DNA from: Flavobacteriia bacterium | GTDB lineage: Bacteria > Bacteroidota > Bacteroidia > Flavobacteriales_D > Crocinitomicaceae | DNA length: 34,681 nt | Direction of reading: 5' to 3' | NCBI GenBank assembly: GCA_016183815.1 | Contig: JACPDW010000029.1 | Span: 1-34,681, forward strand | Shown here: one piece after another, positions 23,554 through 34,051 of the stretch | How the letters are laid out: each line of letters begins with the position of its first letter | Numbering within the stretch: position 1 is the first letter of the stretch | Made by a program: the position numbers and the translations under genes | Notes under the pieces: generated by a model | What the model saw: only the letters and a program-made list of their open reading frames with translations | Database searches by the model: none | What the model was told of the DNA's origin: nothing

Positions 23554-23937
23554 TCAATTACTCAACACCCAATTCCATTTGTCTTTTAACCTAAAATATT
23601 CTGTTACAAAGTCTTCTAAAGCAATATTTTTTGACGTTCTGTGAATTTCCGAGTTTTGTATATATTGAAATGCCCTTTGAATCAACTCTAAAACTGGGGA
23701 ATCAATATATTTTTTTGAAGTATTTATATCAAATTTAAAAGAAGAAAACAAAGCATTAATTTTTAACATATTTTCAATATCTTCATTAGTTTTTTCCTCT
23801 TTAACACTCAATGTCAGATAGATAGGTAACAAACGGAAATTCACTTCTATAAAGTGTTTAATTACATTCAACCCGACATTGGTCAAAACTATCTCTTTAT
23901 AAGGCATGAATGATCGATATGTAAACTGTTTGTTCAT
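23554..23937 (-). CDS. Uncharacterised 127-residue protein
   Basis: The family is not recognised. The predicted protein is soluble and mostly helical, with no signal peptide or Cys. It begins MNKQFTYRSFMPYKEIVL, contains LPIYLTLSVKEEKTNEDIEN, and ends in an aromatic-rich FRLKDKWNWVLSN. The ATG at 23937 is the only suitable start. It is transcribed toward the terminator of the receptor gene. No -7 element was found upstream; the heptamer array starts about 107 bases behind its start codon. Confidence 0.6.
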   Translation of the reverse strand: MNKQFTYRSFMPYKEIVLTNVGLNVIKHFIEVNFRLLPIYLTLSVKEEKTNEDIENMLKINALFSSFKFDINTSKKYIDSPVLELIQRAFQYIQNSEIHRTSKNIALEDFVTEYFRLKDKWNWVLSN

Positions 23938-24043
23938 CTTGTTTTAATAACGATTGAATTTTTAAAAGGTTGTATGAAAAACTTACAAATTGAATAAAAA
24001 GCAGCTTTGAATGAGCAAAAGCCAATATTGATTTATTATTTGA

Positions 24044-24211
24044 ATTCACCATTCCTATTTCTCCATTCTCCATTCTAAATTCTAAATTCCTAATTCTCCA
24101 TTCCTAATTCTCCATTCTTAATTCCTAATTCTCCATTCTTAATTCTTAATTCTCCATTCCTAATTCTCCATTCTCCATTCTCCATTCTAAATTCCTAATT
24201 CTCCATTCACA
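24044..24211. repeat. Heptamer tandem array, 24 units of ATTCNNN
   Basis: 168 bases divide exactly into 24 consecutive 7-base units. Nearly all start ATTC and end in one of four triplets: TCC, CTA, TTA or TAA. From left to right the units are ATTCACC, ATTCCTA, TTTCTCC, then a mixture of ATTCTCC (9), ATTCCTA (5), ATTCTTA (3) and ATTCTAA (3), closing with ATTCACA. It is non-coding, lies in the 409-base gap between 23938 and 24346, and has stops or shifts in all frames. The bases on either side of it in this gap are plain AT-rich DNA. Confidence 0.9.
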
Positions 24212-24299: not shown

Positions 24300-24307
24300 T
24301 ATATTTG
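24300..24307 (+). promoter_or_regulatory. Bacteroidota -7 element for the dksA-like/lspA operon
   Basis: TATATTTG matches TAnnTTTG exactly, 39 bases before the ATG at 24347. The -33 region is a T-rich stretch without TTG. Confidence 0.45.
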
Positions 24308-24346
24308 CCATCTTAAAATTTTAGGATACGAACAAAAATATAGATT

Positions 24347-24727
24347 ATGGCTACAGAAAAAACAAGATATTCTGACGATGAGTTAAATGAATTCAAAAAA
24401 TTAATACTTGAAAAAATTGAAGAGGCAAATGAAGATTTGAAACTTTTAAAAGGAACACTTTCTTTGAGTGATGATCACGGCACAGATGATACAGGTCGTA
24501 CTTTTAATATGATGGAAGACGGATCTGAAACATTATCAAGAGAAGAAGTAGCACAATTGGCAGCACGTCAAGAAAAATTCATACAAAATTTACATAATGC
24601 TTTATTGAGAATTGAAAACAAAACTTATGGTATTTGTCGAGAAACAGGTAAATTAATACCAAAAGAAAGATTAATGTTAGTACCTCACGCTACACTTAGT
24701 ATCGAAGCAAAAAACGCACAAAAATAG
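24347..24727 (+). CDS. TraR/DksA-family protein with degenerate zinc finger
   Basis: 126 residues. Residues ~8-40 and ~65-90 form the two coiled-coil helices (FKKLILEKIEEANEDLKLLK; VAQLAARQEKFIQNLHNAL), separated by DDHGTDDTGRTFNMMEDGSE. The C-terminal globular part YGICRETGKLIPKERLMLVP followed by HATLSIEAK is the DksA zinc-finger region, but only one of the four usual Cys remains (the others are Thr, Ser and Ala). Such zinc-independent DksA-like proteins bind RNA polymerase in the secondary channel. Its TAG stop overlaps the GTG of lspA by one base, so the two are translationally coupled. Confidence 0.88.
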   Translation: MATEKTRYSDDELNEFKKLILEKIEEANEDLKLLKGTLSLSDDHGTDDTGRTFNMMEDGSETLSREEVAQLAARQEKFIQNLHNALLRIENKTYGICRETGKLIPKERLMLVPHATLSIEAKNAQK

Positions 24728-25368
24728 TGAAGAACAAGCTACTTTGGGTTGGATCCATAGTTTTTTTCATTTTATTGATTGACCAAATTCTAAAGATTTG
24801 GGTAAAATCAACATTTACTGTTTATGATGACCCAGTACACCTTTTAGGTTCTTGGTTTAGACTGATTTATGTAGAAAATCAAGGCATGGCTTTTGGTACA
24901 ACACTTGGAAGTAGTCTTTGGGCAAAACTTTCGTTGAGCATCTTTAGAATAATCGCAATTATTGGAATATCATATTATTTATTTCAACAAATAAAAAAAA
25001 ATGCGAATTTAGAATTTCTTATTGCTGTTTCTTTGGTTTTAGCTGGAGCAACTGGCAACCTAATTGATTCTATGTTGTACGATTTTATTTTCCCTTATGA
25101 TCCTTGTATGCCTTTCAACCAATTAATAGGTTCTGGAAACAAAATTGATTGTGGTTTTTTAGGAATTATTGAAACAAAAAACACTGGTTTTCTCTTTGGA
25201 AATGTGGTAGATATGTTTCAAATAAATTTAACATGGCCAAAATGGATTCCATGGCTTGGTGGTGGTGAAGTCTTTCCTGCAATATGGAATATAGCTGACT
25301 TTAGTATAAGTGTAGGTGTTATACTAATGCTAATTCGTCAAAAAAAATATTTCCCTAAAAAGAAATAA
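24727..25368 (+). CDS. lspA: Lipoprotein signal peptidase (signal peptidase II)
   Basis: 213 residues with four membrane helices. The aspartyl protease pair is Asp114 in GATGNLIDSML and Asp191 in WNIADFSISVG. VENQGMAFG near residue 53 is the family's conserved loop. The extra segment between the two Asp (about residues 120-180, with GNVVDMFQINLTWPKW) makes it longer than the E. coli enzyme, as is usual in Bacteroidota. It cleaves prolipoproteins before the lipidated Cys and so serves the several lipoproteins of this window. It begins with GTG sharing a base with the upstream TAG. Confidence 0.95.
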   Translation: MKNKLLWVGSIVFFILLIDQILKIWVKSTFTVYDDPVHLLGSWFRLIYVENQGMAFGTTLGSSLWAKLSLSIFRIIAIIGISYYLFQQIKKNANLEFLIAVSLVLAGATGNLIDSMLYDFIFPYDPCMPFNQLIGSGNKIDCGFLGIIETKNTGFLFGNVVDMFQINLTWPKWIPWLGGGEVFPAIWNIADFSISVGVILMLIRQKKYFPKKK

Positions 25369-31204: not shown

Positions 31205-31690
31205 TTAATTCATTAATGACCAAGTTAATTTATCTCTCGAAAAAGCTTCAGCTATAAAGCCAATTCTATTTGAATCCGAACATGTAACACCTAAATAAAA
31301 TGCAGCACGAGATAAACCCACATATATGTTTTTGAGTAAGAGGTCTTCATCCGTTTTACTTATTTTCTTACCTTCAAATAAATTGTCAATATTATGAAAA
31401 AATGCCGCTTCAAATTCCAAGCCCTTTACGTAATCAATTGAGAAAACTCTAACTGAGTTTTTATCTCCTAGTATTTGACCGTTTTCGCACGGGACAACAT
31501 TAATTCCAATATCACACAGTAAATCTAATTGACCAAGTGTTTTAGAAAAACGACTTAAATCTTCATTAGGAGGTAAAAAGATTGCAATTGAAGGAATCAT
31601 TTGACCATAAGCTTGATAAATTTCTACAATACGTTCTGCAAGCCATTCTATTTTTACAAACTCATTTTCGCTTTCAAAAAATAAAGGCAC
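31205..31690 (-). pseudogene. C-terminal part of split SF1 helicase (motifs IV-VI)
   Basis: This continues the frame of the larger helicase piece: after the TAA at 31694-31696 the same frame reads PVPLFFESENEF and on for 161 codons (the apparent GTG start at 31690 is just the second codon after the stop). It contains SVRVFSIDYVKGLEFEAAFF (motif V of UvrD-like helicases) and LLKNIYVGLSRAAFYLGV (motif VI, with the conserved Arg). Without a connection to the N-terminal piece it cannot form an active helicase by itself. Independent translation from GTG is possible but unlikely. Confidence 0.75.
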
Positions 31691-31693
31691 AGG

Positions 31694-34051
31694 TTATAAG
31701 GGGTCTTTATCAGTAAAACTTTCATATACAGAAGGATGACCTATTGCTTTTTCATAGATTTTATTGGCAACTTCTAACAAAGTTGGACTTTGACGGTATG
31801 ATATTTTTAATTCATTGATTTGAAAATTTTTTATGAAGGGTTTTAGTTCCTCCCATTTTCGAATACCATCTTTTGTCAGTCGTTGCATTAAGTCACCCGA
31901 ATAAGTCACGGAAGCAATTTCTGGATGTTTTAAGCTCTCCATTGCTATCAAATCAATAATATGAAAATCTGTTGCTTCATCAATACCTATCACTGGACAA
32001 GCAATCTCTAGAAAAGCCTCTATGTATGAGTGATTCAATTGCTCAAATCTTGGCTTCGATATTTTTCGAGATTCTACCACTAATTTATTTGCAAAGTAAA
32101 TTAGAAAGGCATGTTCATTTGGATGAATTCTTTTATTTCGTTCTTTTGGATCATTGATTATTGCATCCAATATTGTTCGATTCCATGTTGTATTGTCATT
32201 CAATAATTCATTCCTTCTGTAATTTTTATAAACTTGAGGAAATCTACTAAAAACATTAGAAACGACACCTTTAGTATATTTAACAAAATATTTACTGAAA
32301 AAAGCAAGCTCAGCAACTTTAATGAAATTAGAATGAATTTCAAAATCAGAAGATGATTGTAAATCTATATAAAGTAATTCTTGATTTTTTGTCAAAGATT
32401 GTTTACCATCAAATTGTGACAATGCTTTCTTTCTAATAAGTGATTTAATTTGTTGTAAGGCAAAATGATCGATATTTAATATTAACTCTTCATCATCTTC
32501 TTCGTCTTCCAGATCATCATCTTGATACGCGGTTTGATTTTTTTGCCATTCAGAAAAGAACAATTCAATACTTCGCCATTTTGATGACTTTTTTAGTAAT
32601 ACAAGAGATTCTAGGGCTAAATCATTTAAAATGGTTGAATACTCTTTGTTTATTGAAGAAAATGATTCATTGAAATTGGATTCCAGCTTAAAGAAGAATC
32701 GAAGTAAATCTGAAATTGAAATTATTTTTTTGTAGTCACTTAAGTCTTTTTTTATTAGTAAGACGTCTTTATGCCAGAAAAATGAGTTTGTCTTTAATGT
32801 TGCTATTTTTTCAAAAGATGAACATATTGATTTTATAAAAAAGACTTCAAAATCATCAAGGATTTGTTTTAACTTTTTAGCATCTCTTGGCAATAATGTG
32901 TCTTGTTGATACTGATTAAAAAGTAAAAAGGGATTCCTTGTTTCTGAATTTATGAATTTGTATTTTTTTATTAGAAGATTTTTAAAATCAGCCCAAACCC
33001 ACACGCGATTATCCTCGGCTTTTAAACCTTCTTTAATCATACTGTTCTTTAAAAATAATTTTAAAAGCTCACTTGGAGAAAGGAAAATCCAGTTATTAGT
33101 GCCAAAAAGTAAGTCTTGTTGAATTTTCGACATATTAGGAAAATAGCCTTCTTCTAAACCTTCTTCAGAATTTGCGGAAGCTGAACCAAGCATAGCTGTT
33201 TTGTCGGTCAAAAATTTGATACGTTGAATGAGAGCGGTAGTTTTACCAGTTCCTGGACCACCGTTTATCGCCATTGCTCCTTCAAATAAATGACTACGTT
33301 TGATTTCTTCTTGCCATTTATCTAATATTGGTTGGTGACGTAACTCAGCATGCTTGCGTATGAAACTGCGTGAATTTGCATATTCGGCATTAATTCTTTC
33401 TTTAAGTTCTTGGAGTTGTTCTACCAACTGAAGCTTATCTTGCTCTAATTCTAATTTTCGAAGATTATCTGCTTGTTCTAATTCTTGTAAAACCTCTCTT
33501 TTTGAAAGATTTTCAAGTTCAGCTTGATCTTTTTGTAAGCGTGTATTTAATATTTCTGAATTAATTTCATCAACTAATAATTGCAAACTTTGAAATGATA
33601 TTGGTTTTGAAGAACCCAAGTTAATAAGTAAATCAGAAGCATCTGCATTATTGTGATTTGGAATATATGAGGTAAAATTAAATATTTCAATTTCCTGAGG
33701 ACCTTTTGGAGTATGAAATGTATGTTTTCCAGTATAGTTGGTAATCAGAAGTTCACCCATTTTACTATTCTTATATATAGGTATACCATCATTTGTAATC
33801 GTTGTTCGACCTCCTGCCATCGTACCAACAAAATCACCAACCACATTTCTATTGACACCAAAACTTCCTAAGTTTTCAGATGGTGTGAGCCAAAACTTCA
33901 TTTCTTGACCAAAATAATAAACGTTAGAATGAGCAATTGCAAGATTCTTGTCAGGTCTTTGTAGTAAATCTGCCTCTAAAACACGGTGTTTTTTTATATT
34001 TTGACCAATTTCAGCTATCCACTGATTTTTGTTTTGTTTTCTCTTTGCCAT
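31694..34051 (-). pseudogene. Large SF1 (UvrD-like) helicase, N-terminal 785 residues, truncated by TAA
   Basis: Residues 1-190 are an unrecognised N-terminal region (NVVGDFVGTMAGG, KMGELLITNYTGKHTF); ~165-235 is a charged coiled coil (QELEQADNLRKLELEQDKLQ). Walker A is GGPGTGKTT at 264-272, Walker B GIDEATDF near 687, a GDLMQRL element near 715, and SYRQSPTLLEVANKIY near 750 (motif IV-like). Motifs V and VI lie after the in-frame TAA at 31694-31696, in the 161-codon piece. With the stop ignored the protein is about 947 residues. It starts at ATG 34051, 29 bases after the upstream small ORF. It is either a pseudogene, a readthrough case or a sequencing error. The partner genes are unknown. 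Confidence 0.8.

Follow-up and report, generated by a model that had tools for sequence, protein, structure and literature searches.

A heptamer array with an ATTC core and variable triplets beside a dksA-like gene of a Bacteroidota genome resembles dispersed heptanucleotide satellites

Tandem repeats of seven bases have been described in several bacterial lineages, mixed heptamer repeats in Bacteroidetes among them (parts of PMC4679880, PMC4692102 and PMC6749651). The short tandemly repeated repetitive (STRR) sequences of cyanobacteria (Mazel et al. 1990, as cited in PMC4692102) share with the array analysed here tandem heptanucleotide units and dispersed copies, and the cyanobacterium Moorena carries arrays of the ATTC kind; the present host, however, belongs to Bacteroidota, and its arrays place mixed triplets on a fixed core. 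The TAACTGA heptamers of Beggiatoaceae, Cyanobacteria and Bacteroidetes are mostly intergenic 7-bp direct repeats of up to 43 copies, and some Bacteroidetes copies likewise lie beside other heptamers and are missing from a close relative whose spacer is shorter; nevertheless, the heptamer is another one, and the copies of the Guaymas genome lie mostly near start codons and consist largely of one unit (MacGregor 2015, PMC4679880). The GGGNATC and GGGGA(C/T)T repeats of Xanthomonas and Nostoc, as presented in part of PMC4692102, are similar in being dispersed heptamers enriched outside genes, with a variable position and length variation between relatives, but they are G-quadruplex-capable, whereas the present array is free of G on one strand and has no GGG on the other. 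In addition, (GATAGRA)n of Chloroflexus aurantiacus, a heptamer-derived prokaryote satellite, is comparable in its scattered heptamer satellites and degenerate position and differs in unit and organism (sections of PMC6749651). The accessible part of PMC4060949 does not mention heptanucleotides.

Within the window, that is, the whole stretch of 34,681 nt that was analysed, the array occupies positions 24044-24211 of the plus strand and comprises 168 bp in 24 head-to-tail units of seven bases, all in one register and without an indel; the coordinates, length and register given in an earlier note, which had been made from the sequence alone, were exact on recheck. The main units are ATTCTCC, ATTCCTA, ATTCTTA and ATTCTAA. 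The same note had every unit begin with ATTC, which is the case for 23 of the 24 (unit 3 reads TTTCTCC), and had allowed for four interchangeable triplets, where we counted six: TCC (10), CTA (6), TAA (3) and TTA (3), together with one ACC (unit 1) and one ACA (unit 24). Its description of the unit order as non-periodic was borne out by unit shuffling, since the repeated triples, best lag and longest repeated string were reached by 296, 171 and 845 of 1000 shuffles, respectively; this shuffle-like order retains no trace of multi-unit duplication. Based on composition, approximately 0.01 runs of four ATTCNNN units were expected genome-wide, compared with 104 overlapping matches found, 18 of them within this array. 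Stops are present in all six frames, so coding was rejected and the statement that no gene explains the array stands. A structured RNA was likewise rejected: Rfam returned no matches in the window, the plus strand as RNA had a minimum energy of 0, and the minus strand did not fold better than shuffles (118 of 200 equally good). The plus strand contains no G in its 168 bases and the minus strand at most GG, short of the GGG or longer per unit that characterizes G-quadruplex heptamers.

Two divergent genes flank the spacer that holds the array. On the left, an ORF of 127 aa on the minus strand (23554-23937) has no Pfam match and has homologues of 40-43% identity at the same place in all four congeners (G001-G004; the source genome is G000). 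On the right, the plus strand carries a dksA/traR zinc-finger gene (24347-24727, PF01258), followed by lspA, assigned to signal peptidase II by domain search (24727-25368), which served to locate the orthologous loci. Gene order at the locus is identical in the five species of the genus, the source included, and TATATTTGC is found upstream of dksA in all five. A motif match on the plus strand, TATATTTGCC at 24300-24309, is 88 bp away from the array end and is the predicted promoter element of the dksA-like gene; we take it to be a -7 element of the Bacteroidota type. To the left of the array, a 29-bp block on the plus strand, TGAAYAAAAAGCAGCTTTNNNTGAGCAAA (23991-24019), is identical in 26 of 29 positions in G001, at the same place, and marks the ancestral spacer. 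This block contains the palindrome AAAGCAGCTTT and is a possible operator; copies of it occur once in G000 and twice in G001 (one with 3 mismatches), and none were found in G002-G004. Elsewhere in the window, near the contig end, adjacent ORFs of 785 and 161 aa on the minus strand (31205-34051) resemble one split UvrD-like helicase, an impression from the translation only, and Pfam gave just a weak P-loop match for the 785-aa ORF.

At the orthologous locus, the array is missing in all four congeners, as the fetched loci hold no chain of at least five ATT heptamers. With mechanical starts, the spacer between the 127-aa ORF and dksA measures 409 bp in G000, compared with 206 bp in G002, 203 bp in G003, 233 bp in G004 and 94 bp in G001; the G003 value becomes 233 bp if the 126-aa dksA start of its relatives is used, and the G001 value, by arithmetic, approximately 230 bp if the longer minus-strand ORF started as in the other species. 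After excision of the array, the best of 28 junctions resembled the spacer of G001, to a degree that 14 of 1000 shuffles reached, and no similarity was detected to the spacers of G002, G003 and G004 (154, 119 and 172 of 200 shuffles as good, respectively). This junction similarity hints that the atypical first three units on the plus strand, ATTCACC, ATTCCTA and TTTCTCC (24044-24064), could be a pre-array remnant and the ancestral seed of the array, an idea that arose post hoc and draws on similarity in one of the four congeners.

The earlier note had made its reading depend on whether similar arrays exist elsewhere and called for a genome-wide search for ATTCNNN runs, and such arrays were found. 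G000 contains nine ATTC arrays on eight contigs and both strands, covering all 104 four-unit matches, with the two pieces of the C23 array counted once. The ninth, C43 (approximately 146,315-146,426), is composed of 16 ATTCTTA and ATTTTAA units, accounts for 4 of the 104 matches and reads ATTT instead of ATTC in 3 units. Judged by mechanical ORFs, eight of the nine arrays fall between genes or run into one gene end, by no more than 25 bases, and the ends of two neighbouring ORFs extend across the C13 array (five units). Of the 24 arrays of congener G002, 23 are placed between genes or reach into a gene end, and one lies inside an ORF of 102 aa. Three features of STRR-like repeats, seven-base units in tandem, dispersed copies and a mostly intergenic position, are thus present here, the last with gene-end overlaps included. 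The original STRR1-3 definition does not extend to the array, given that the Calothrix unit sequences differ from the present ones. The gaps holding the 24 arrays of G002 are divergent in 7 cases, convergent in 7 and tandem in 10. In tandem gaps, the ATTC strand was sense to its same-strand neighbours in 7 cases and antisense in 3 in G002, and sense in 1 and antisense in 5 in G000, amounting to 8 of each; the C11 array, at a contig end, was excluded from this count.

To delineate where the units vary, we built a minimum tree over the unit types of each array and counted changes by position. Across the nine G000 arrays, 2 of 58 changes fell in ATT against 25 expected (P = 8e-12), and 10 of 58 in ATTC against 33 expected; the ATT skew persisted in seven arrays with C38 and C43 left out (P = 2e-9). 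A looser array-end rule, under which 23 G002 arrays entered the count instead of the 24 used for gene context, gave a weaker skew in eight G000 arrays, with 18 of 70 changes in the four core positions against 40 expected. The same skew, again weaker, was observed in Moorena (10 of 32 and 18 of 51 changes). Because the arrays were found via ATTC, part of the skew exists by construction, and in short arrays of 4-6 units, including most ATCT loci, the search itself imposes the fixed core, which is then uninformative. Nevertheless, in the 160 units outside the first four-unit ATTC run of eight arrays, A, T and T were kept in 159, 159 and 160 units and C in 139; therefore, ATT is held more firmly than ATTC. 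Exchanges between A and C exceeded those between C and T (12 versus 7). The constant core with interchangeable triplets described in the earlier note consequently extends over the nine arrays, but the skew is weak in the 24044-24211 array alone (one change among 7 fell in ATTC; P = 0.027, uncorrected for position choice), and the core is breached by the ATTT units of C43. The view that one unit with random point changes is too simple an account is partly upheld. A literature search, covering mostly papers outside subscription, returned no paper on such a fixed-core, free-triplet rule.

Four consecutive ATTCNNN units are present in three of the four congeners (four of the five genus genomes including the source), G001 being without a match, and in 135 of 296 sampled Bacteroidota genomes, the source again included. 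The control core ATCT, searched in the same form, was found in 52 of the 296 and not in G000, and carries its own mixed triplets in several genera; the backward control CTTA, at approximately 65 of 296 (counted by eye), is unclean because ATTCTTA arrays contain CTTA. A 21-base string of array units retrieved 39 stretches from genome_contigs, many of them from metagenome bins: going by record title, 22 from Bacteroidota, 8 from Cyanobacteria and 9 from other lineages, including Clostridia, Acidobacteria, Peregrinibacteria and Nautiliaceae. A chain of at least five ATT heptamers was present in 35 of the 39. Carriage by phages was rejected, as the string had no exact match in viral_contigs. Among eight of these genomes searched whole, four-unit matches numbered 2040 in Moorena bouillonii, 751 in a Prevotella bin and 2-38 in the remaining six; with that number in 8.3 Mb, M. 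bouillonii (L082, L051, G300, G309) is a good system for studying array growth. In Cecembia rubra (L064, 5963-7160), a unit of approximately 430 bp bearing a heptamer array is repeated in tandem, and the regular spacing of its arrays looks like the outcome of this duplication carrying the arrays along.

Signs of how arrays change came from their unit order. Among seven arrays tested, multi-unit duplications were clear in C11, whose repeated triples and longest repeat were reached by none of 1000 shuffles, and weaker signs were found in C21 (repeated triples in 1 and best lag in 12 of 1000) and C38 (repeated triples in 16 of 1000). C11 and C38 have 13 consecutive units in common (0 of 500 shuffles). 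The BLAST matches listed between them (longer than 60 bases) are confined to the arrays, C11 having a flank of 177 bases on one side, and an assembly error behind the shared units is possible because both arrays lie near contig ends. Unit vocabularies were not closer within genomes (mean similarity 0.278) than between G000 and G002 (0.301; 1345 of 2000 permutations reach the difference); genome-specific vocabularies were accordingly rejected, which counts against copying between arrays as part of a satellite origin.

One 40-kb stretch each of the Moorena genomes G300 and G309 was compared, in which three pairs could be matched among 8 and 7 arrays. One pair has 11 versus 16 units, 11 of them in common, and another 6 versus 5 units, both in segments approximately 98.6-98.9% identical; in the third, the two 16-unit arrays are identical, and their segment shows 91.7% identity overall and 97.5% over the 200 bp closest to them on the upstream side. 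For the 5 of 8 and 4 of 7 arrays left unpaired, the locus is beyond the alignment or no simple counterpart exists. The earlier note had regarded random point changes of a single unit between strains as evidence against its reading; the Moorena pairs differ by whole units instead of simple point changes, a result that applies to Moorena. Copy number may vary between relatives of the source: the array is absent from the four congeners, and differences in unit number were seen only in Moorena.

Several functional accounts can be weighed against these data. An array bound by a protein that recognizes the core specifically, in which three units would span 21 bp or two helical turns, appears unlikely: the retention of the core in nearly every unit and across the G000 arrays, and the 88-bp distance to the dksA promoter motif, are in its favour, but the array is absent from all four congeners despite their kept promoter motif and genes, arrays occur in both orientations and in all three gap types, and other lineages use a different core (ATCT). 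The protein-binding array suggested by the earlier note is hence unsupported, with neither a fixed orientation nor a fixed gap type, and so is its replication landmark, judging from the spread over contigs and strands.

An element acting as a G-free, unstructured transcript, putatively a Rho loading site or a spacer, would agree with the lack of G and of a fold on the plus strand. We consider it very improbable, however, as the orientation is evenly mixed (on which ground a Rho site was rejected), the promoter motif of dksA is downstream of the array, and the TonB gene further upstream already has behind it what looks, by eye, like a terminator hairpin. Least probable of all is a dedicated machinery, for instance a reverse transcriptase, that would write units from a template into many loci. 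The fixed core and the string shared by C11 and C38 are what such a machine might produce, but RVT_1 does not follow the arrays, being present in G001, which has no four-unit ATTC match, and missing from array-bearing G003 (86% complete), and a link to reverse transcriptase was rejected; the vocabularies, no closer within than between genomes, and the lack of an exact match among viral contigs are further points against it. The coded product of a templated process proposed in the earlier note thus finds no support.

We favour the explanation that the array is a lineage-specific, STRR-like heptanucleotide satellite, a simple sequence grown by in-register slippage or template switching and probably without use to the cell. 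An ATTC-bearing stretch of the spacer would have been duplicated by seven-base slippage during replication, and further in-register slippage or template switching, inside an array and at times from one array to another, would then have enlarged and reshuffled it. A unit would be re-copied only while ATT(C) holds the register, so that the core would stay and the triplets drift because re-copying needs it, and the array would be tolerated in the spacer, probably doing nothing for the cell. The satellite explanation is favoured by the site between divergent genes, the absence from the four congeners, the scattered sets of similar arrays and the whole-unit differences in Moorena. It is strained by the core, since under simple slippage with random point changes all seven positions should vary, whereas ATT received so few changes. 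Further strain comes from the excess of A/C over C/T exchanges, the shuffle-like order in this array, vocabularies that are not genome-specific, a seed signal in one of four congeners and a Moorena comparison of three pairs only. The unchanging ATT(C) is the sole unexplained part of the array. A broader interpretation, in which a fixed four-base core with interchangeable triplets defines one phylum-crossing class, its lineage-specific core (ATTC in the source genome and Moorena, ATCT elsewhere in Bacteroidota) being kept by core-specific amplification and copying of units between arrays rather than blind slippage, seems unlikely to us.

Such heptanucleotide repeats of bacteria have been published before, and the array adds another. 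Of more lasting value is the pattern over many genomes: the core stays constant while the triplets drift, unrelated phyla share one core, and other lineages have different ones. With this pattern, the old question of why repeats in bacteria are so often seven bases long can be tested by comparing sequences.
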